Below, piece after piece: positions 9,915-20,720 of a DNA stretch of 59,885 nucleotides; positions within the stretch are counted from its first letter, which is position 1; the number at the start of each line of letters is the position of its first letter. The stretch is from Acidobacteriota bacterium (GTDB taxonomy: Bacteria; Acidobacteriota; Terriglobia; Terriglobales; Acidobacteriaceae). The DNA lies in assembly GCA_003225055.1 (NCBI GenBank), contig QIAU01000199.1, forward strand, positions 1 to 59,885, given 5' to 3'. Made by a program: the position numbers and the translations under genes. A model generated the notes under the pieces. That model did not search any database. It saw only the letters and a program-made list of their open reading frames with translations, and was not told the DNA's origin.

Positions 9915-10307
9915 GGGTCACTCCTGGGCAGGTTTAGCAGAGAGTCGCGTGCCTTTCGACCGGACCGATTTTCTCCACTTGGGCACGTCAGCTCAATACG
10001 GGCGATTCCTGATTACGAAAGGCCAAGGATAGGGTGTCCAGAAGTTCAGTGTACGTACGGCGTCTTCGAGCGAGAGCGAGACCTAGTCAAGGCAGCCACA
10101 CTCCCGGAAGGATTTTTCCCGCTTGACAAGCTCCGTAAGATTGGGGCCTAATCAGCGGCGGTTCGGGGTAACCAAAAAGTACTAGGGCGCCCTGACAAAC
10201 AAGGTCACATCGTTGCTGCGGGGACCACTCTGTTCCATCAATCGCTAGCTGCGGCCGTGGGGCGTTAGAAGCAATCGATGGCCAGTATCTGGAAGGGAGC
10301 TATGTCC
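9915..10307. other. Gap upstream of the first receptor gene
   Basis: About 390 bases with no recognised gene. An AAGGGAG ribosome site at 10293-10299 serves the receptor. Promoter elements are not clear by eye. Confidence 0.4.
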
Positions 10308-13300
10308 ATGCCGAAGACTGTAAGGCTGCTGGTGGTGCTGTGTCTGCTCGCGCTGCTGGGCGCGAGTGCTTGGGCTCAAGGAATTTTTGCTACCCTGACT
10401 GGCGTTGTGTCGGATCGCTCGGGATCCGTCGTGAGTGGCGCTAAAGTCAAGTTGACGGATGCCCTGTCGGGGTCCGCGCGCGACACAGTTACTAATGGCG
10501 AGGGCTATTTCACCTTCGCGTCGGTGCCAGTTGGAACGTATGAGCTCACGGTGGAGGCGCAAGGCTTTCAAACCTACAAAGCGACCGACATTCGCTTGGG
10601 TGGAGGGGAGCGGCGCAAGAACAACGTGACGCTGGCCGTGGGCAGCACCCCGCAGACAGTGGAGGTCACCGCCATTTCCGACTTTGCGGTAGCCACGGTG
10701 GACTCGGGAGAGAAGTCGTTCACGCTGGCCACCAAGGAGCTGCAGAACTTCACGCAGGTCGGCAGCAACGCGGCTGAGTATGTCAAAATTGTGCCAGGAT
10801 TTGCCATCGCCAACGGCACGTCGAACAAGTCGAATTACAACGGCGCTACCATCGGCATCAATGCTAATGGAGATTCTGGCAGCCAGAGTCCGTTGAACAA
10901 TGCTTTTTCTTACAACGGACTGCCATCGAATGTGCTGGACATCGCGGCCGACGGTGCGCACGTTTCCGATCCGGGCTGTAACTGCGATACGCCAGTCAAT
11001 CCCAACTCCGACTTCCTTCAGGAATTCAGGGTTCTCACCTCAAACTTCAGCGCAGAGAATCAGAAGGGGCCGATCCTCATAACGTCAGTGACGAAGGCGG
11101 GTGGCCGGGACTTTCACGGCAGCGGGTTCTTCTCGGCCAGAAATCACTCGCTGAATGCGAACGACTGGCTGAATAATTTCAGCGGCGTCAAGCAACCCGC
11201 CAACTCCTACTATTACCCGGGAGGTTCCATTGGCGGACCGGTCATCATCCCAGGAACCAACTTCAACAAGAGTCGCAACAAGCTGTTCTTCTTCACGGGC
11301 TTTGAATACTTTCATCAAACCCTTGATACCGGATTGCTCAGGGCGACGGTTCCTACCGACGGCATGATAAATGGTAACTTCTCGCCTACCGAATTGGCGA
11401 AGTTAGGTACCAAGACCGCATCCGGCCTTCCACCGGGATCAGTTGATCCGTTGGTCTTTCCAGGCTACCAGATCCCAGCTTGTACAAGTGCAGGTCAGAC
11501 CGCTTGCATTGACCCCAACATGCAAGCCTTGATGAAGTTGCTTCCGCGTCCAAACGCAGATCCGAACGCCACGGGCGGCTATAACTACACTCAGGCCGAA
11601 ATCTTCAGCCAGAACAACCGGCAGTGGGTGATCCGCGGGGACTGGAGCATCAGCGACAACACGAAGGTCTTTGTTCGCTATAACTATCAGCGCGAGCTGC
11701 AACAGTTCCCAGTCGGCCTGTGGTGGCGCAACGGCGACCAAGTGCCATATCCTACTCCGATCCAGGGGAGGAACAAGTCGGATTCCTGGACGGGCACGGT
11801 TACTCACGTCTTCAGTCCAACGATGACCAATGAAACCATCGTGTCCTATTCGTTCATTGCCTTTCCAAACGTGTTCGCCGATCCCAACAAGGTAGACCGA
11901 ACGAAAGTGGGCTACACCTATGCTGGCCTGAGCCTCGTCGGCAAGAAGCCCATTTCGCAGATCCCGTCCTTCGGCAACTTTGGCCCGAGCGAGGCTGCGC
12001 TGATATTCAATCCGGGTGGATTTGAGGCGGGAGGTGCTGGCCAAGGTCTCTACGCCAACAAGTACATGCCGAACGTAAGCAACATTCTTACCAAGGTCAT
12101 CAAGAATCACACACTGAAGGGCGGTTTCTTCTGGGAGTGGATCCGAAATTCCCAGCCGGCCAACAACAACACCAACGGTCAAATGCTATTCCAATCTCCC
12201 GGCAATCAGTTCAGCTATGGAGACGAATACGCGGACATGTTGACCGGGAACATAACGAACGGTTACAGCGAGACAAACTTCAACCGCCTGAACAACATTT
12301 CATACAACACGTATGAGTTCTTTGGGCAGGATTCGTGGAAGGCCACCAAGAAATTAACGGTCGAATTCGGTCTGCGGTTCACTCACTTCCAGCCCTGGAT
12401 CGACCGCGAGAATTTTGGCTATTCGATCTTCAATCAAGCGCTTTATCAGCCTAGCTGTGCGGCCACGCCCACCTTCTGCGGATTCGTATGGCACGCCAAA
12501 GACAAATCGACTCCGCTCGGCGGATTCCCCACGCGGTCTTTGTTCTACCAGCCACGTTTTGGAGCTGCTTACGACCTCTTCGGCAAGGGCAACACCGTGT
12601 TGCGGGGAGGCTGGGGACGCTTCTATTTTCACTCCGGCCAGTTCACCAACGGCTTGGATGCCTCCGCGGGCGTAGCCGCTGCGAGCATCTCGTCGACCAC
12701 GTGGGTCGGAGGCGCCGGTTGCCCGACGAACCCGCCCGGTGGGTCTAAGCTGTTCGCACGATACTTGTCTTGCGTCAATGTCTCCGCATCACCCGCTTCT
12801 CCCGCGGCAGTTGATTCCAACGATGACAGGCAGCCGTACACTGACAGCTGGAGCTTTACGATCTCACAGAAAGCACCGTGGCAGAGTCTGCTCGAAGTCG
12901 CATATGTTGGCAACCGCAGCCGGGATCTGGCCAACAGCGGCGGATACGGCAGCAATACCAACCTGGTTCCTGTCGGTGCAATGGTGCAGAACGCCAGCGA
13001 CCCCGACCCGGCGCACGTCGATCCCAAATTCTTTCGACCTCTGAATGATAAGGTCACAGGCGCGGGCTACGGTGATCTTAACCAGGCCACCAACAATGTT
13101 TATGCCAACTACAATGCTATGCAGGTGACGTGGGCACGTCATCAGGGCCGCTATACCATCCAGGCCAATTACACTCTGCAGAAGGCTCTTGGCATCCTCA
13201 CCGAGAATGCCAATGGCCAATCCAACGGGTCGGTGTCGCTTAACCCGTTCAATCTCCGCGCCAACTACGGGGTTCAGCCGACTGACCGACGGCAAGTCTT

Positions 13301-14000
13301 TAACATTGCCTATTCCATTGATGTAGGCAATCCCCTGCACGCGCATGGCTTCCTGGGAGGCGCGACGGCAGGCTGGCAGATCTCGGGCATCACGCAGTTG
13401 CAGAGCGGAGCCAATCTCACCTTCGGCGGCGGCTACAACTCCAGCACCAACTTCAACATGACCCTCTTCTGTGATACGTCTACCCCGGCCAACGCAGCCC
13501 TGTGCAAGAGCATACAGAATAACAACGCGGTCATCCCTGGCACTTTCAACGCGTTTACCCCGCAGGGCCTTGCCATGAACAATCAGTCCATGTTGGGAAC
13601 CAACGCCCTGCAATTGAATCCAATCGTGACCTGCAACCCGAGGTCCGGGTTGGGATCGCATCAGTTCATCAATGGGAACTGCTTTGCTGTGCCCACAGCG
13701 ATTGGCCAAAATGGGCCCACTCTGCTGCCCGTGGTCTACGGGCCGAAGTATTTCGATTCCGACTTGGGAATCTATAAGAACTTCTCCATTTCGGAGTCAA
13801 AGAAGTTGCAGTTCCGCGTTCAGGGCTATAACTTCCTGAACCATCCATTATGGTCGTTCCCGAACAGTAGCAACCTGACCCTTCAGTTCTCGCAGGATCC
13901 GACAACGCAGGCCTTCACCCAGACCAATTCGAACTTCGGAAAGGCAACAGTCAAACAAGGCGGCCGCATCGTCGAGTTTGCCGTGAAGTTCTACTTCTAG
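10308..14000 (+). CDS. TonB-dependent receptor with N-terminal carboxypeptidase-regulatory-like domain (1)
   Basis: A ~1,230-residue outer-membrane protein. The signal peptide (LLVVLCLLALLGASAWAQ) is followed by a CarboxypepD_reg Ig-like fold (~25-110: GVVSDRSGSVVSGAKVKL, VPVGTYELTVEAQGFQ), a plug domain (~130-290) and a long beta-barrel ending in the aromatic tail KFYF. This Oar-like receptor class is greatly expanded in Acidobacteriota and is generally linked to uptake or handling of large substrates such as glycans or peptides; the ligand here is unknown. The ATG at 10308 is chosen for its spacing from AAGGGAG; ATGs at 10302 and 10278 are in frame. A strong terminator follows, so it is transcribed apart from the TPR-CRTAC1 pair downstream. 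Confidence 0.92.
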   Translation: MPKTVRLLVVLCLLALLGASAWAQGIFATLTGVVSDRSGSVVSGAKVKLTDALSGSARDTVTNGEGYFTFASVPVGTYELTVEAQGFQTYKATDIRLGGGERRKNNVTLAVGSTPQTVEVTAISDFAVATVDSGEKSFTLATKELQNFTQVGSNAAEYVKIVPGFAIANGTSNKSNYNGATIGINANGDSGSQSPLNNAFSYNGLPSNVLDIAADGAHVSDPGCNCDTPVNPNSDFLQEFRVLTSNFSAENQKGPILITSVTKAGGRDFHGSGFFSARNHSLNANDWLNNFSGVKQPANSYYYPGGSIGGPVIIPGTNFNKSRNKLFFFTGFEYFHQTLDTGLLRATVPTDGMINGNFSPTELAKLGTKTASGLPPGSVDPLVFPGYQIPACTSAGQTACIDPNMQALMKLLPRPNADPNATGGYNYTQAEIFSQNNRQWVIRGDWSISDNTKVFVRYNYQRELQQFPVGLWWRNGDQVPYPTPIQGRNKSDSWTGTVTHVFSPTMTNETIVSYSFIAFPNVFADPNKVDRTKVGYTYAGLSLVGKKPISQIPSFGNFGPSEAALIFNPGGFEAGGAGQGLYANKYMPNVSNILTKVIKNHTLKGGFFWEWIRNSQPANNNTNGQMLFQSPGNQFSYGDEYADMLTGNITNGYSETNFNRLNNISYNTYEFFGQDSWKATKKLTVEFGLRFTHFQPWIDRENFGYSIFNQALYQPSCAATPTFCGFVWHAKDKSTPLGGFPTRSLFYQPRFGAAYDLFGKGNTVLRGGWGRFYFHSGQFTNGLDASAGVAAASISSTTWVGGAGCPTNPPGGSKLFARYLSCVNVSASPASPAAVDSNDDRQPYTDSWSFTISQKAPWQSLLEVAYVGNRSRDLANSGGYGSNTNLVPVGAMVQNASDPDPAHVDPKFFRPLNDKVTGAGYGDLNQATNNVYANYNAMQVTWARHQGRYTIQANYTLQKALGILTENANGQSNGSVSLNPFNLRANYGVQPTDRRQVFNIAYSIDVGNPLHAHGFLGGATAGWQISGITQLQSGANLTFGGGYNSSTNFNMTLFCDTSTPANAALCKSIQNNNAVIPGTFNAFTPQGLAMNNQSMLGTNALQLNPIVTCNPRSGLGSHQFINGNCFAVPTAIGQNGPTLLPVVYGPKYFDSDLGIYKNFSISESKKLQFRVQGYNFLNHPLWSFPNSSNLTLQFSQDPTTQAFTQTNSNFGKATVKQGGRIVEFAVKFYF

Positions 14001-14028
14001 TTGGGAAAGAGCCTTTCAAAGCTAAAAT

Positions 14029-14054
14029 GGGATGGCCGAAGCCATCCCGTTTTT
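14029..14054 (+). terminator. Rho-independent terminator after receptor 1
   Basis: GGGATGGC (14029-14036) pairs perfectly with GCCATCCC (14041-14048) around a CGAA tetraloop, and the stem is followed by G and five T. It begins 28 bases after the receptor stop codon. This is the clearest intrinsic terminator in the window. Confidence 0.92.
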
Positions 14055-14210
14055 ATGTGTGCGGAATCAAGGTTGGAGTCCATGTCGATCTACGAAAGGT
14101 TGCATTTGAGAGCCGACGCAGCAAGACTTCCATGCCGGAGAGTTCGAAGCGGCGCTCCGCAAGGTAACGGTACTATTAAAAGAGTCGCGCTTGCCGCGTG
14201 GGGTCCAGTA

Positions 14211-15332
14211 ATGGATATGTGGAGAGCCATCTTCCTAATCGTATCCCTCGGCATCTTGACCCTCGATGCCATCGCACAGACGCCTCAGGAGTTGGTCCAG
14301 GACGCGATTTCGAAGCAGCAAGCAGGCGATCTCGAAGGCGCAGTCCGAGAATACAGACAGTTTCTGAAGATGCATCCCGAAGCGGCGGGTGTTCGATCAA
14401 ATCTGGGCGCCGCCCTGGCCGGGCTCGGACAATTTGCCGAAGCGATTACCGAGTACAAGGTTGCTCTCAAGCAAGCCCCTGCGACTCCCGGGCTTCGCCT
14501 CAACCTTGCATTGGCGTACTACAAGACGGGACGCATCAGTGACGCCGCCGCCAAACTGGTCAAAGTACACGAAGACAGCCCCGAGAACAACCAGGCGATC
14601 CTCCTGCTAGGCGACTGTTACTTGCGCATGGGACAGAATAAAGATGTGATCCGCCTTCTGCGGCCCGAACATCAGAAGAATCCCGATGACATGGCAATCG
14701 TGTACCTGCTGGGAACCGCGCTCATTCGCGATCACCAAGTGGACGAAGGGCAAGCCCTGGTCGATCGTATCTTGCGTAACGGTGAGTCGGCCGAGGCTCG
14801 CTTCATGCTAGGCAGCGCCAAGATGGAGGCCTCCGATTTCGCAGGCGCGCGCGAGGAACTTGCCAAGGCCATCGCCCTAAACCCGAATCTCCCCGGCGTG
14901 CATGTTCTCTACGCGCAGACCTTGCAGATTACGGCCGGTCCCGAAGAAGCGCAGAAAGAATTCAAAGCCGAACTGGCGATCGATTCCTACAACTACATGG
15001 CGAATCTCCAGATGGGAGCGATGCTGCGCCAGGACCAGAAATTCGATGAGGCCAAGCAATACCTCACGCGCGCACTGGAGACGCGGCCCGGCGACTTCGC
15101 GGTGCGTTATCAACTGGCAGCGATTGCGCTTTCGGAAGGCAAGGTCGATGAAGCGCGGAGCGAACTAGAGTCGATCGTAAAGGAGTCGCCGCAGTTCACC
15201 GAAGCGCACGTTTCGCTCTCGCTCGCCTATTTCCGCCTCAAGCGTCCGGCCGACGGAAACCGGGAAAAAAGTATTGTCGAAAAATTAACGGCGGAAGCGC
15301 AGGCCAAGCAGCCCGGAGTCAAGGCGCAGTGA
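14211..15332 (+). CDS. Exported TPR-repeat protein (1)
   Basis: From ATG at 14211 the product has 373 residues: a signal peptide ([18 protein letters not shown]) and then about eight to nine tetratricopeptide units, for example [20 protein letters not shown] and [23 protein letters not shown] solenoids bind partner proteins. The gene lies 37 bases before the CRTAC1 gene at 15370 and probably shares its transcript. Matching exported TPR proteins accompany the other two CRTAC1 genes of this window, so a functional partnership is likely although unproven. The open frame upstream of 14211 includes the terminator region and is not coding. Confidence 0.85.
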
Positions 15333-15369
15333 TACTTTCCGACTGCCCGCGTCCCCTGACAATCCCTTT

Positions 15370-17076
15370 ATGACGATCTCGAGAAGAGAGTGGCTGTGGC
15401 TCGCGGGCGCATGTGGCGCGACGCACTTGTGGGCTCGGCAAGGCGTGAGCACGCCACCAGAGCCGCTATTCGCGGAGGTGCCGGCATCGGCAAGCGGCAT
15501 CGAGTGGGTGCACGACAACGCCATGTCAGCGAACCACTACCTGCCCGAAACATTGGGCCCGGGTTGCGCATTTCTGGATTTCGATAACGACGGCTGGATG
15601 GATATTTTCCTGGTTAACAGCGGTCCCAGCGATTTCTGGAAGCCGCCCAAGCCGGTGCGCAACGCGCTCTACAAAAACAACCGCGATGGCACTTTCACCG
15701 ATGTGACCGAGAAAGCGGGTGTAGCAGGTGCGTCATTTGGAATGGGAGTTGCGGTAGGGGACTACGAGAACGATGGCTGGCCAGACATTTTTGTCACCGC
15801 CTACGGCAAGTGCACGCTGTACAAGAACAACCAGGATGGTACGTTCACAGATGTCACGGAGAAAGCGGGCGTCGCAACGCCCGGCTGGACTACCAGCGCC
15901 GTCTGGTTCGACTACGACAACGACGGCTTGCCGGACCTGTTTGTTTGCAGCTTTGTCGACTATTCGGGTGAGCACAAGTTCGAGTGTGGCGATAACAGGA
16001 TCGGCAAGAAGTACTACTGCATTCCCCGGGTCTTTCGCCCGACCGCAAGCTTCCTCTACCACAACAACGGCGATGGCACCTTTACCGAGGTGAGTAAAGG
16101 CACCGACATCGCCAAGGCGCTAGGAAAAGGCCTGGGCGTGGTTGCTACCGACATCAACAACGACGGACGCATGGATATGTTCGTTGCCAATGACACGGTG
16201 CAGAATTTCTTGTTCGTGAATCGCGGTCCTGGCCCGAACAGACGCTGGAAATGGGAGGAAATTGCCCTGCAGGCTGGGGTGGGATTCAGCGAGAGCGGTC
16301 AGGCCCGGTCCGGGATGGGCGTGGATGCCTCGGACCTGGACAACGACGGCTGGCAGGACATGCTTGTCGCCAATGTCGATCACGAGATGTTTTCGGTTTA
16401 CGAGAACAATAAAGACGAAACATTCCGTGACGTCGCTCAAGCTAACGAGGTTGCTCAGGCCACTCGCCTGCTGAGCGGCTGGGGATTGAAATATTTCGAC
16501 TACGACAATGACGGTGCAGTCGACTTGATCCTCGCCAACGGGCATCCTGATGACATGATCAACGAGTACTCGATGCAGGTGAAGTACAAAGAGCCGCTTC
16601 TGCTATTCCACCAGGGGGACGATCACCGGTTGCACAACGTCAGCGATCAAGCGGGTCCAGCGTTTAAGAGGTTTTTCCCGGCCCGAGGTCTGGCGGTGGG
16701 CGATTATGACAATGACGGTGCACTGGATGTGCTGATCGGCAACAATGGCGGCGCTCCCCTGCTCCTGAGCAACCATGCCGGCAAAGGCAACAACTGGCTG
16801 GGATTGCGACTGGAGGGGGTGCACTGTAATCGCGATGGCGTGGGCGCTAAGATCTGCTGGACAGCAGGCGGGAAGAAACGGTATCGGCTGAAGAATAATG
16901 GAGGCAGCTACTTGTCTTCTCACGATCCGCGGGAAGTGTTGGGCATCGGCAGCGCGCTGAAGATCGACGAACTCGAGATTCAATGGCCAGGACCAGGCAA
17001 GCAGATCGACAAACTCACAAACCTGCCCATTAATCGGTATGTCCACGTGATGGAAGGCAAGGGAATTTTACGTTGA
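15370..17076 (+). CDS. CRTAC1-like FG-GAP/VCBS repeat protein with ASPIC/UnbV domain (1)
   Basis: The 568-residue protein opens with a Tat-like signal ([15 protein letters not shown]) and carries many FG-GAP/VCBS repeats with calcium-binding D-x-D/N-x-D-G loops: [48 protein letters not shown]. The C-terminal ~80 residues ([20 protein letters not shown] and [10 protein letters not shown]) are the ASPIC/UnbV domain. It should fold as a seven-bladed, calcium-stabilised propeller in the periplasm or on the surface. Function is not established in bacteria; binding to glycan or protein is a guess. It follows the TPR gene by 37 bases. Confidence 0.9.
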
Positions 17077-18233: not shown

Positions 18234-18488
18234 ATGAGCTTGAAACCATCGATGCTTTTGGCTGTAATTCTCGCACTGGGAGTAGTCGGGTTTGCGCAAG
18301 GGGTCGCCTCCGACGTGGGCAAAGCCGCAAAAGATACGGGCCAAGCAACGGAGAAAGCGGCTAAGAAGACGGCTCATGGCACCAAAAAGACAGCGAACAA
18401 AACCGAGCACGGAACGAAGAAGGGCGTCAGGAAGGTCGCGCACGGAGTGAAGAAGGGCGCCAAGAAGACGGAACAGACGGTGAAGTGA
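18234..18488 (+). CDS. Small exported Lys/Ala-rich repeat protein
   Basis: The 84 residues start with a signal-like segment (MLLAVILALGVVGFAQG) followed by a very basic tail of degenerate repeats built on KKTAHGTKKTANKTEHGTKK, then KKGVRKVAHGVKKGAKKTEQ. An AAGGAGA site lies nine bases before the ATG. The tail resembles histone-H1-like or LEA-like low-complexity proteins, but the signal peptide points outside the cytoplasm, where it might bind anionic polymer. A hairpin follows directly. No firm family assignment. Confidence 0.7.
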   Translation: MSLKPSMLLAVILALGVVGFAQGVASDVGKAAKDTGQATEKAAKKTAHGTKKTANKTEHGTKKGVRKVAHGVKKGAKKTEQTVK

Positions 18489-18490
18489 AT

Positions 18491-18518
18491 CGCCGCCTTG
18501 ATTGCGGCGGGATTTCTG
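18491..18518 (+). terminator. Hairpin after the Lys-rich gene
   Basis: CGCCGC (18491-18496) pairs with GCGGCG (18504-18509) around a 7-base loop, two bases after the stop codon. The trailing T-run is short (ATTTCTGTT), so termination may be partial. Confidence 0.6.
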
Positions 18519-18583
18519 TTGGGGCTCGTGCAGGTTATTGGGTCCGAACTCTGTCGGAACTCTGCCGCGATATGTAGTTGGCT

Positions 18584-18620
18584 TCTGCTTATCCGGTTGT
18601 TTCAGCACGCCACCATCTGT
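18584..18620 (+). repeat. Left terminal inverted repeat of the reductase cassette
   Basis: Core TGCTTATCCGGTTGTTTCAG begins two bases inside the direct repeat. It matches the reverse complement of 19256-19292 at 32 of 37 positions. Confidence 0.8.
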
Positions 18621-18677
18621 AGCGTAGGTACCCCGGGCTGCCGTTTCCGTAGAATTTGCGCTCACGGAGGGTACGTC

Positions 18678-19232
18678 ATGAAAGCGTGGCGAAAGATCAT
18701 CGTCTACATCGCGACGAGCGCTGACGGTTACATCGCCAGACCAGACGGCGATGTCGAATGGTTAAATCGGCGACCACGCACAGTCGATTACGGCATGCGC
18801 GCGTTCTACCCCACGATTGACACCATCCTGTGGGGACGCAAGACCTACGACTGGGTTCTCGACTATTACAAGGAAAGAGGCAGGAAAGGCGGAATGTTCG
18901 ACACGAAGCTCGCCAACTACGTGTTCTCCAGGAAACCGCCGAAACGGGAGACTCCAGGCGTGGCATTCGTGTCGGAGCCGGTGAAAGCCTTTGCGCGACG
19001 CCTGCGCGCGACGCCGGGAAAACACATCTGGATGATGGGCGGCGGGGACCTGATCGCTTCATTCCTCGACGCCGGCGAGATCGACGAGTTCGATATCCAT
19101 GTCATTCCTACCCTCATCGGCGAGGGCATTTCACTCGTGGCACCGCGCCATCGGGACGTGCCGCTTCGCTTGCGCTCAGCCAGGAGGTACTCAGACGGTG
19201 TCGTCCGACTGCGCTATGAGGTCTCGAAGTAG
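18678..19232 (+). CDS. Dihydrofolate reductase family (RibD C-terminal-like) protein
   Basis: The 184-residue product matches the RibD_C/DHFR-like fold: IIVYIATSADGYIARPDGDV at the N-terminus, ILWGRKTYDWVLDYY in the NADPH-binding region, and IWMMGGGDLIASFLDAGEID plus IPTLIGEGISL toward the end. Such stand-alone proteins reduce pterins, pyrimidines or unknown substrates with NAD(P)H; the substrate cannot be told from sequence. The ATG at 18678 has a GGAGGG site ten bases upstream. It is the only gene inside the inverted-repeat cassette. Confidence 0.88.
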   Translation: MKAWRKIIVYIATSADGYIARPDGDVEWLNRRPRTVDYGMRAFYPTIDTILWGRKTYDWVLDYYKERGRKGGMFDTKLANYVFSRKPPKRETPGVAFVSEPVKAFARRLRATPGKHIWMMGGGDLIASFLDAGEIDEFDIHVIPTLIGEGISLVAPRHRDVPLRLRSARRYSDGVVRLRYEVSK

Positions 19233-19255
19233 CTCGCAACGGACTGCGAATCGCA

Positions 19256-19292
19256 ACATATGGTGGTCTGCTGAAACAACCGGATAAGCAAG
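19256..19292 (-). repeat. Right terminal inverted repeat of the reductase cassette
   Basis: Inverted copy of 18584-18620, starting 24 bases after the reductase stop codon. The outer end abuts the second AGTTGGCT. Confidence 0.8.
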
Positions 19293-19596
19293 AGTTGGCT
19301 AAGCGAGCTCGTCTGCACCCCGGCCACGAATTCCGGGCGGCGATGTTTCAACAGCTGGAACCGGGGCAGCCGGCACCGGTGGCTGCCGAGAACTCGTGTT
19401 GGTTCTTGGGAACCCGACTATCAGGAGGTCGCTTCAAGGATGCCTTTTGTCCCCGTGATCCGTGCCCGCAGTTCAGGCCTCTCGCCGCGTTGGACAAGCG
19501 CATGGCTTCCAATTCGCTGAAAGGCTTTGGACAACTCGGTGGGATCTTCATCCGCAGCCGCGAAGCGCTTGATATGAAAATCGAAATCGCTGGACG

Positions 19597-19879
19597 TTAC
19601 GCGCGCCCTACCCAGCAGGCTGGCCGTCGCTTCATGACGGCAAGCACATGTACCACACTCGGACGACGAATGGTGTAAATGACAGCGTAAGGAAAACGTC
19701 GAACGAGTCGACGCCGAATTGATCCGAGGACGCTTTGACCAGCCTCAGGGTGCGCAAGGATCGCATCAGCTCTCAACTTCTGCCAGGAACGCTGCTCCGA
19801 GGCCGGGGCTCTCCAGTTCATAGTATTGGGCGGCATCGTTCAGCTCTCGTTCGGCTAATGGGTTGAAAGAGACATTCAC
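19597..19879 (-). pseudogene. ParE/RelE-family toxin, frameshifted
   Basis: From a GTG at 19879, overlapping the antitoxin stop (GTGA), the frame gives NVSFNPLAERELNDAAQYYE then LGAAFLAEVES and a stop. In the neighbouring frame the family continues at once with ADAILAHPEAG, RRRLVRRFPYAVIYTIR and HVLAVMKRRPACW, ending at 19597. One missing base near 19765 explains the break. The restored protein would be a normal ~95-residue ParE-type toxin, which in characterised members inhibits gyrase or cleaves mRNA. As it stands the C-terminal catalytic strands are not made in frame. Confidence 0.75.
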
Positions 19880-20088
19880 TTCAGGCGGGCTCGTGCGTTA
19901 CGGAACACGTCATCGCTGGGACGGCCCATCGTTAGGTCTGCATCCCACGCCTGATCGCGCCTTTTCGCCTCCTCGGCCCAGAGCCTGGCGTTCTCTTCGT
20001 CCGACAGGTGCTCAAGGCTCTCGAGAAGTTTTTCGGCCAAACGAGCACGATCGCTTGCCGGCAGCTGCACAGGTCGGCGCCGGCGCAA
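19876..20088 (-). CDS. Addiction-module antitoxin (ParE partner), short N-terminus
   Basis: The 70 residues contain the family pattern LPASDRARLAEKLLESLE, then AEEAKRRDQAWDAD and DVFRNARARLK at the end, typical of small antitoxins that precede ParE-like toxins. The only start in frame is TTG at 20088, and the usual ~10 residues before the LPAS segment are replaced by an Arg-rich stretch, so the N-terminus may itself be altered. The stop overlaps the toxin start by four bases. The antitoxin core looks intact while the toxin is broken. Confidence 0.7.
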   Translation of the reverse strand: MRRRRPVQLPASDRARLAEKLLESLEHLSDEENARLWAEEAKRRDQAWDADLTMGRPSDDVFRNARARLK

Positions 20089-20720
20089 TCGAATACATCA
20101 CCTTAGATAGGCGGCAGCACGTCGCGTTTATGTCGGAAGGGTTCTCCGGAGCCCTTCTTCCATGAGCGCTATGCTCTCCGCAAACTGGAAAGCACAAACC
20201 GTGAGCTTCCGTGATCAAACATCAGGCGGACGACAATCGCTCCACATAGGAACTCGTTCCGGATGTTAACCGGAGGGTTTACGGTGGAATTCCATTACGG
20301 CCAAGGGTGGTGAGCATAGAGGCTCGGGTCTGTCATCCAACACCTGCGGTCCGCCAACGCTGATGAAATAGACAACGAAAAACGTCGAGCTGTCGCACTC
20401 GGTATCTGGACAATTGCAGGGGGCGTGAAGAGGACAGATTCCATCAAGCGCCACTCGTGCCGATGACCACGGCGCTGGCTTTCGTCGTCGCCCCATGGCC
20501 GGTGGAAGTACTTGCTGCGCCATTCCGGAACGCTAGCTGCCGGAACTTGGGCCGCTGCATTGCGACACATAAAAATCTGCCAGATTCGACAGGAGACTAC
20601 TTCCCGCGCCGGTTCGCCGCTTCGCCGCCGAACCGGTTTGTGCAGTCTTGCGTTCATGATAGAGTCCCGGCTGACGGGGATACCACAATTGCTCGCCAAA
20701 ACGGAGATGGAGGCTTTGTC
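20089..20720. other. Gap without a recognised gene
   Basis: About 630 bases separating the toxin-antitoxin remnant from the sugar cluster. Open frames on both strands lack family resemblance. A GGAGG-like site precedes the DUF1080 start. Confidence 0.4.

Follow-up and report, generated by a model that had tools for sequence, protein, structure and literature searches.

The window, by which we mean the whole stretch of DNA analysed here (59,885 nt of the forward strand of contig QIAU01000199.1, assembly GCA_003225055.1, genome label G000), comes from an Acidobacteriota bacterium of the Acidobacteriaceae. It contains a 709-bp cassette in which a single intact gene, and no transposase, lies between terminal inverted repeats. 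The length follows from identical copies of an octamer that bound the element on both sides (18584–19292). The features of the locus are:

18576–18583, no strand: left target-site duplication AGTTGGCT, with an exact copy at 19293–19300; it fits the family target AGNNNNCT
18584–18624, plus strand: left terminal inverted repeat with an exact 22-nt core (18586–18607), as at the ends of IS1595-family elements
18625–18661, plus strand: transposase-gene relic (IS1595-type, 5′ end), from alignment with full elements
18666–18671, plus strand: ribosome-binding site GGAGGG, by sequence; similar before the gene in G705, G692, and G605
18678–19232, plus strand: RibD_C/DHFR-like reductase gene of 184 aa, the intact passenger (PF01872; yyaP, 2gd9; dN/dS)
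19252–19292, minus strand: right terminal inverted repeat with an exact 22-nt core (19269–19290), from the arm alignment and the shared core
19293–19300, no strand: right target-site duplication AGTTGGCT, an exact copy of the left octamer

The inverted arms (18586–18624 and 19252–19290) are 39 nt long and pair at 35 of 39 positions (90% complementary); the sequence-only reading, which had reported inverted repeats around one gene, counted 32 of 37. The outermost 22 nt of both arms (TGCTTATCCGGTTGTTTCAGCA) match exactly, and the matching core begins two bases inside the octamer on both sides, bearing out the symmetry described there. Across the whole window, exact 16-nt inverted pairs no more than 2 kb apart number seven, which overlap and all belong to this arm pair, and ten mononucleotide shuffles of the window yielded at most one exact 14-nt pair apiece. 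The pairing of the arms is beyond chance. The enclosed gene is of DHFR/RibD type with its own ribosome site, as had been proposed, with GGAGGG six bases 5′ of the reductase ATG. The absence of a transposase also held: tblastn with the IS1595 transposase of L047, one of the full elements described below, finds no match in the window at E 1e-4. Between 18400 and 19450 a promoter scan returned no sigma-70-like promoter, and two terminator-like sites are present in this interval against 1.0 expected.

Upstream of the cassette, a 1240-aa outer-membrane barrel protein (OMP_b-brl_4), a TPR protein, and an FG-GAP/UnbV_ASPIC protein are encoded in a row (10278–17076). A lysine-rich, repetitive 84-aa ORF without a Pfam match (18234–18488) is followed by a terminator-like hairpin (18490–18510), and the octamer of the cassette starts about 65 bp further on. 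Just downstream, at about 19640–20100 on the minus strand, an antitoxin-like frame (Unstab_antitox, PF09720, E 2e-9) lies next to a ParE-like toxin gene that is broken over two frames; the first piece of this gene has no Pfam match, and the second scores 21.4 bits against a cut-off of 23.

An IS1595 element family shares the ends

The 22-nt core is found well beyond this locus. It occurs three times in the window's own genome (up to three mismatches) and also in relatives, where the sequence-only reading had advised looking. At the same tolerance it is present in 49 of the 398 genomes of the window's family, with some control hits as well, and in 27 of 396 genomes of the phylum, its own included; many of the three-mismatch hits in the phylum scan are probably due to chance, because a reversed control also matches in several genomes. 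A scan for the exact core in a species-genome collection returned 65 stretches, mostly titled Acidobacteriota, with others titled Nitrospira/Nitrospirales, Verrucomicrobia, Deltaproteobacteria, Gammaproteobacteria, and Gaiellasilicea. Of these stretches, 22 come from one MAG, SRVP_9, and some loci are duplicates (L083 of L047, L111 of L048, and L173 of L112).

Eight loci (L042, L047, L062, L071, L117, L118, L210, and L212) combine the same ends and an exact 8-bp duplication with an IS1595-family transposase, and these are the full elements that the earlier reading had proposed to seek. They are 1030–1054 bp long and filled by the transposase alone, and two of them (L210 and L212) belong to the window's own family. 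The L047 and L042 proteins match Zn_ribbon_IS1595 and DDE_Tnp_IS1595, and the L047 protein also matches the NCBI IS1595 model NF033547 (E 1.2e-55). An 8-bp target duplication is typical of the IS1595 family. Two further transposase elements have near-exact duplications, differing by one base in L096 and by three in L102; the transposase is in two pieces in L071 and L096. Both ends are present in L209 and L211, with differing flanks.

The same ends also delimit MITEs of 99–111 bp with exact duplications (L043, L058, L066, L074, L079, L091, L108, and L114); in L044 and L086 the duplications differ by one base, and L059 and L073 are cut at contig ends. Rearranged paired-end forms occur as well, with exact duplications in L064 and L103 and three differences in L057. 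L064 (2489–4990, 2502 bp) has the exact 8-bp duplication GGATATCT and a transposase split by an insert of ∼1.3 kb, which carries a long opposite-strand ORF that looks by eye like another transposase. L174 (G579:C80, about 16971–17070) is a MITE of ∼100 bp with cassette-like ends, flanked on both sides by the window's own octamer AGTTGGCT. In genome G763 we count 21 copies of the end over many contigs, with TGATTATCCGGTTGCTTCAGCA in the ten that were listed; this element is probably high-copy and breaks the assembly, since at least five of the ten listed ends are at contig edges.

Just outside the two terminal bases, the 94 distinct outer flanks (from 101 ends) read AGNNNNCT in 65 of 94 and TAGNNNNCT in 60 of 94, and the preferred target of the element family is TAGNNNNCTA. 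The window octamer AGTTGGCT and the octamer of a second copy in the same genome (AGTTAACT) both fit this family target. The description of the locus as a transposed passenger unit is thus borne out by that second copy and by full elements that share the ends, have 8-bp duplications, and favour one target. We also considered that the repeats might be ordinary terminators and rejected this, since they pair around transposases and ∼100-bp MITEs with target duplications.

The reductase gene and its copies at other loci

The product of the passenger gene matches RibD_C (PF01872, E 8.7e-16, residues 5–176), and its closest solved structure is YyaP (2gd9, E 9.6e-25, residues 5–180). These sequence matches cover nearly the whole domain and place it among YyaP-type RibD_C/DHFR-like proteins. 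TIGR01508, the sole NCBIfam match, scores far under its cut-off, and a structure model of the 184-aa protein (mean pLDDT 68.7, eight sequences) was set aside as evidence. From its sequence, the enzyme is predicted to be an active NADPH-dependent reductase. Relatives occur in related bacteria: 32 of the 398 family genomes, its own included, match the element at E 1e-10 or better in a DNA search, mostly over the gene only, and 31 of 298 genomes of the order match the protein at E 1e-30. Relatives of the protein also occur in 190 plasmid records, all at less than 60% identity.

Full or nearly full genes (23 in total) were placed in nucleotide and protein trees; the partial copies at C108 and G535 were excluded from the tree and from dN/dS, and the one stop in the aligned frame in each of G484 and G758 was read as X or skipped. 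Nine genes from five genera (the window, G605, G705, G692, G150, G159, G470, G484, and G521) form a clade that is separated from the remaining 14 genes at 100% support in both trees. Inside this clade, G150/G159 aside, branches have 13–92% support, and genes that have ends are intermingled with genes that lack them. Over nine gene pairs, dN/dS ranges from 0.051 to 0.217. Between the window gene and its homologues it is 0.089 (G605), 0.095 (G705), 0.175 (G692), 0.217 (G150), 0.153 (G470), and 0.086 (G484), and for pairs without the window gene it is 0.051 (G605–G705), 0.106 (G692–G605), and 0.125 (G150–G159). The reductase gene is under purifying selection, and it has stayed functional while divergence went far enough for the ends to become blurred.

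Several of these genes, together with broken ones, are further copies of the cassette. In the window's own genome, a second, broken copy (G000:C108) lies next to AGTTAACT; it retains the right end and the window's shortened 5′ joint, its reductase gene has two internal deletions, and a transposase remnant to its left is IS630-like by eye. The same left end and gene occur at unrelated loci in three more genera (G535, G705, and G692). A left-end profile built from ten sequences, the window and L112 among them, scores 22.5 bits beside the gene in G705 and 21.0 in G692, against 6.1 for the best shuffled control; the scores of the window (64.6) and G535 (69.2) are not independent, because both are in the profile. 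G535 is 80% identical to the element from the left end inward, and its gene shifts frame around codon 45 and is no longer similar beyond about codon 83. The G705 contig stops right after the gene, and no right end was seen in G692. Both ends are kept in the window copy alone, with the right end in C108 and the left end in G535, G705, and G692.

G605 is a less certain case. Alignment of its flanks with those of the window beats all 300 shuffles on the two sides (51 vs 41 and 40 vs 29), and it was the sole one of 29 tested homologous loci with both flanks above the shuffles, G705 and G692 being found later. We call it only a probable cassette copy, because the profiles do not detect its end. G159 equals the shuffle maximum on one side only (30 vs 30). 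Among the two G000 loci, G705, G692, G605, and G535, no shared neighbours were found (ORFs of at least 80 aa, 6–20 kb, E 1e-12), and G150 and G159, which are from one genus and have no ends, do share flanking neighbours at E 1e-12. Copies at unrelated loci in related genera suggest that the cassette has moved around, and the unit may have been transferred between genera.

The remaining five genes of the clade (G150, G159, G470, G484, and G521) are close homologues without detectable ends. The sequence-only reading had counted the gene standing in place without the repeats in related genomes as evidence against it; such homologues do exist, and they are at other loci. They may have lost their ends or represent the source lineage, and the selection data fit either. 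One tentative and, in our view, rather unlikely extension is that the whole nine-gene clade was spread by the cassette and the ends then decayed in each host, which would make these five genes former passengers; they fit a free-standing gene as well. If it were true, a transposase-less IS1595 unit would have spread a metabolic enzyme gene across a bacterial family, and the gene would afterwards have settled in its hosts.

Origin and proposed mobility of the cassette

Positions 2–78 of the element match the full elements L102, L071, and L047 at 82–85% identity, and the match continues past the repeat to take in the first part of the transposase gene. This relic carries a TAG (18650–18652) where the full elements read AAG, and it is followed by GGAGGG and then the reductase ATG. 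Read from the sequence, the reductase gene occupies the former position of the transposase gene. L112 (QIAN01000097.1, acidobacterium gp1 AA128), which is identical to G535:C536 over the compared stretch, has the same fusion with ∼25 more bases of the transposase gene. Given the common fusion joint, a single capture appears to have given rise to the window copy, C108, and L112, and of the three L112 looks nearest to the original joint.

Because the full elements share its ends and the relic remains, we interpret the cassette as a non-autonomous descendant of an IS1595-family element in which a captured reductase gene took the place of the transposase gene, a reading to which we give a probability of about 0.9. 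We infer the following order of events. An ancestral IS1595 element would have taken in a RibD_C/DHFR-like gene with its ribosome site, displacing nearly all of the transposase gene and leaving both ends and roughly the first 20 transposase codons, later a dead relic. Since both ends are intact, we propose mobilisation in trans: an IS1595 transposase supplied from elsewhere would cleave the ends and place the unit in a target resembling TAGNNNNCTA, with duplication of 8 bp.

Other histories could place a gene between such ends. Same-end MITEs are common and solo or truncated ends occur, so a resident reductase gene might by chance have come to lie between two ends or MITEs from separate insertions. 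The exact 8-bp duplication at the outer edges and the transposase relic joined straight to the gene, with a like joint in C108, in G705, and (longer) in L112, largely refute this reading, which we consider extremely improbable. It is also very unlikely that a full-length IS1595 element carried the reductase beside its transposase and then lost the latter by deletion. IS copies with extra passenger genes have been reported and are sourced, in PMC3129680, to a paper on the IS1595 family; against this, the 1030–1054-bp elements are filled by the transposase alone, the 2502-bp L064 consists of a split transposase and its insert, and none of the loci examined holds transposase and reductase together.

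Whether the captured-gene cassette is active today is a separate matter. The unit may have moved in the past and by now be a normal chromosomal gene flanked by the remains of its ends; this can be true together with the replacement of the transposase gene, differing on present activity only, and we see it as a real possibility at somewhat under even odds. No cognate transposase was found in the window's own assembly, the search returning only two distant IS1595 relatives (35 and 41% identity), around which no repeats of the cassette type were found; one of them, spread over two frames, scores above the domain cut-off. Decay of the ends is seen in G605 and, in part, in G692 and G705. On the other side, the window's 22-nt cores and octamers are still perfect, and the same genome has a second copy. 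A copy of the cognate transposase may be missed, since the assembly is 98.7% complete in 301 contigs; barring this, movement today would need an outside transposase. The empty site that the sequence-only reading suggested looking for was not found in 40 relatives, in which the only match to the flanks is 86 bp at 71% in G006.

Relation to known transposase-less units

The cassette has IS-related inverted repeats, a passenger in place of the transposase, and a target-site duplication, and on these structural grounds we file it as a new mobile insertion cassette (MIC) from an IS1595-family element. For movement by a cognate transposase in trans, the copies at unrelated loci count as indirect support. 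According to PMC3913671, MICs were originally reported from B. cereus, with an endopeptidase gene in place of the transposase, and can be moved in trans; MIC231 of Bacillus cereus and the qnrD and qnrS2 cassettes likewise hold a passenger within IS-type inverted repeats, with a target duplication and no transposase. The MIC231A1 endopeptidase unit described there was mobilised in trans. Known MICs, as far as this source goes, are mobilised by IS231 or, in the qnrD unit, have a 2-bp duplication (PMC3913671), whereas the present unit has IS1595-family ends and an 8-bp duplication; compared with the MIC231 and qnr cassettes, its relic is still visible and its passenger is a RibD_C-type reductase.

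Neighbouring classes differ in other ways. The cassette shares common ends, 8-bp duplication, and target preference with the IS1595 family, but lacks a transposase gene: where an autonomous member has a Zn ribbon and an ISXO2-like DDE transposase, only the relic is present. The ISsaga paper (PMC3129680) lists MICs apart from IS copies that carry passengers, termed transporter IS. These are likewise IS-related and carry a gene unrelated to transposition, but are IS copies plus additional genes, whereas here the passenger replaces the transposase. MITEs are likewise non-autonomous, with the same ends and 8-bp duplications; the cassette differs in its 709 bp and its intact 184-aa gene.

The earlier suggestion that a non-autonomous unit carrying an enzyme is unusual needs qualifying. 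The enzyme passenger is real, but cassettes that lack a transposase and carry an enzyme are already an established class (PMC3913671). The type of cassette is known, and the IS1595-derived example with a reductase passenger is new; no titles naming an IS1595 MIC were found in a search that reached little of the subscription literature. The known passengers named in PMC3913671 are an endopeptidase and drug-resistance genes, and here the passenger is a metabolic-type reductase in Acidobacteriota. Copies that are intact, one-ended, and probably decayed occur in four genera with the captured transposase start still readable, a natural record of an insertion sequence trading its transposase for a host gene, which may later settle. 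For the question of movement in trans, the ends of the cassette and a transposase of the L047 or L210 type offer a concrete pair.

Among the 65 exact-core stretches, tblastn finds the reductase in L112 only. ORFs viewed by eye in 25 chosen loci and two more revealed no other recognisable passenger between these ends, and many of the ends in the surveyed loci lie at contig edges. No second end was found within 545–3000 bp at single ends such as L056, L070, L072, L087, L093, L048, L046, and L050, and these loci may hold a passenger. L217 and L219 have IS ends of 57–66 bp followed by unrelated DNA. In viral contigs there is one exact end, L121, which lies at a contig edge with 117 bp inside.
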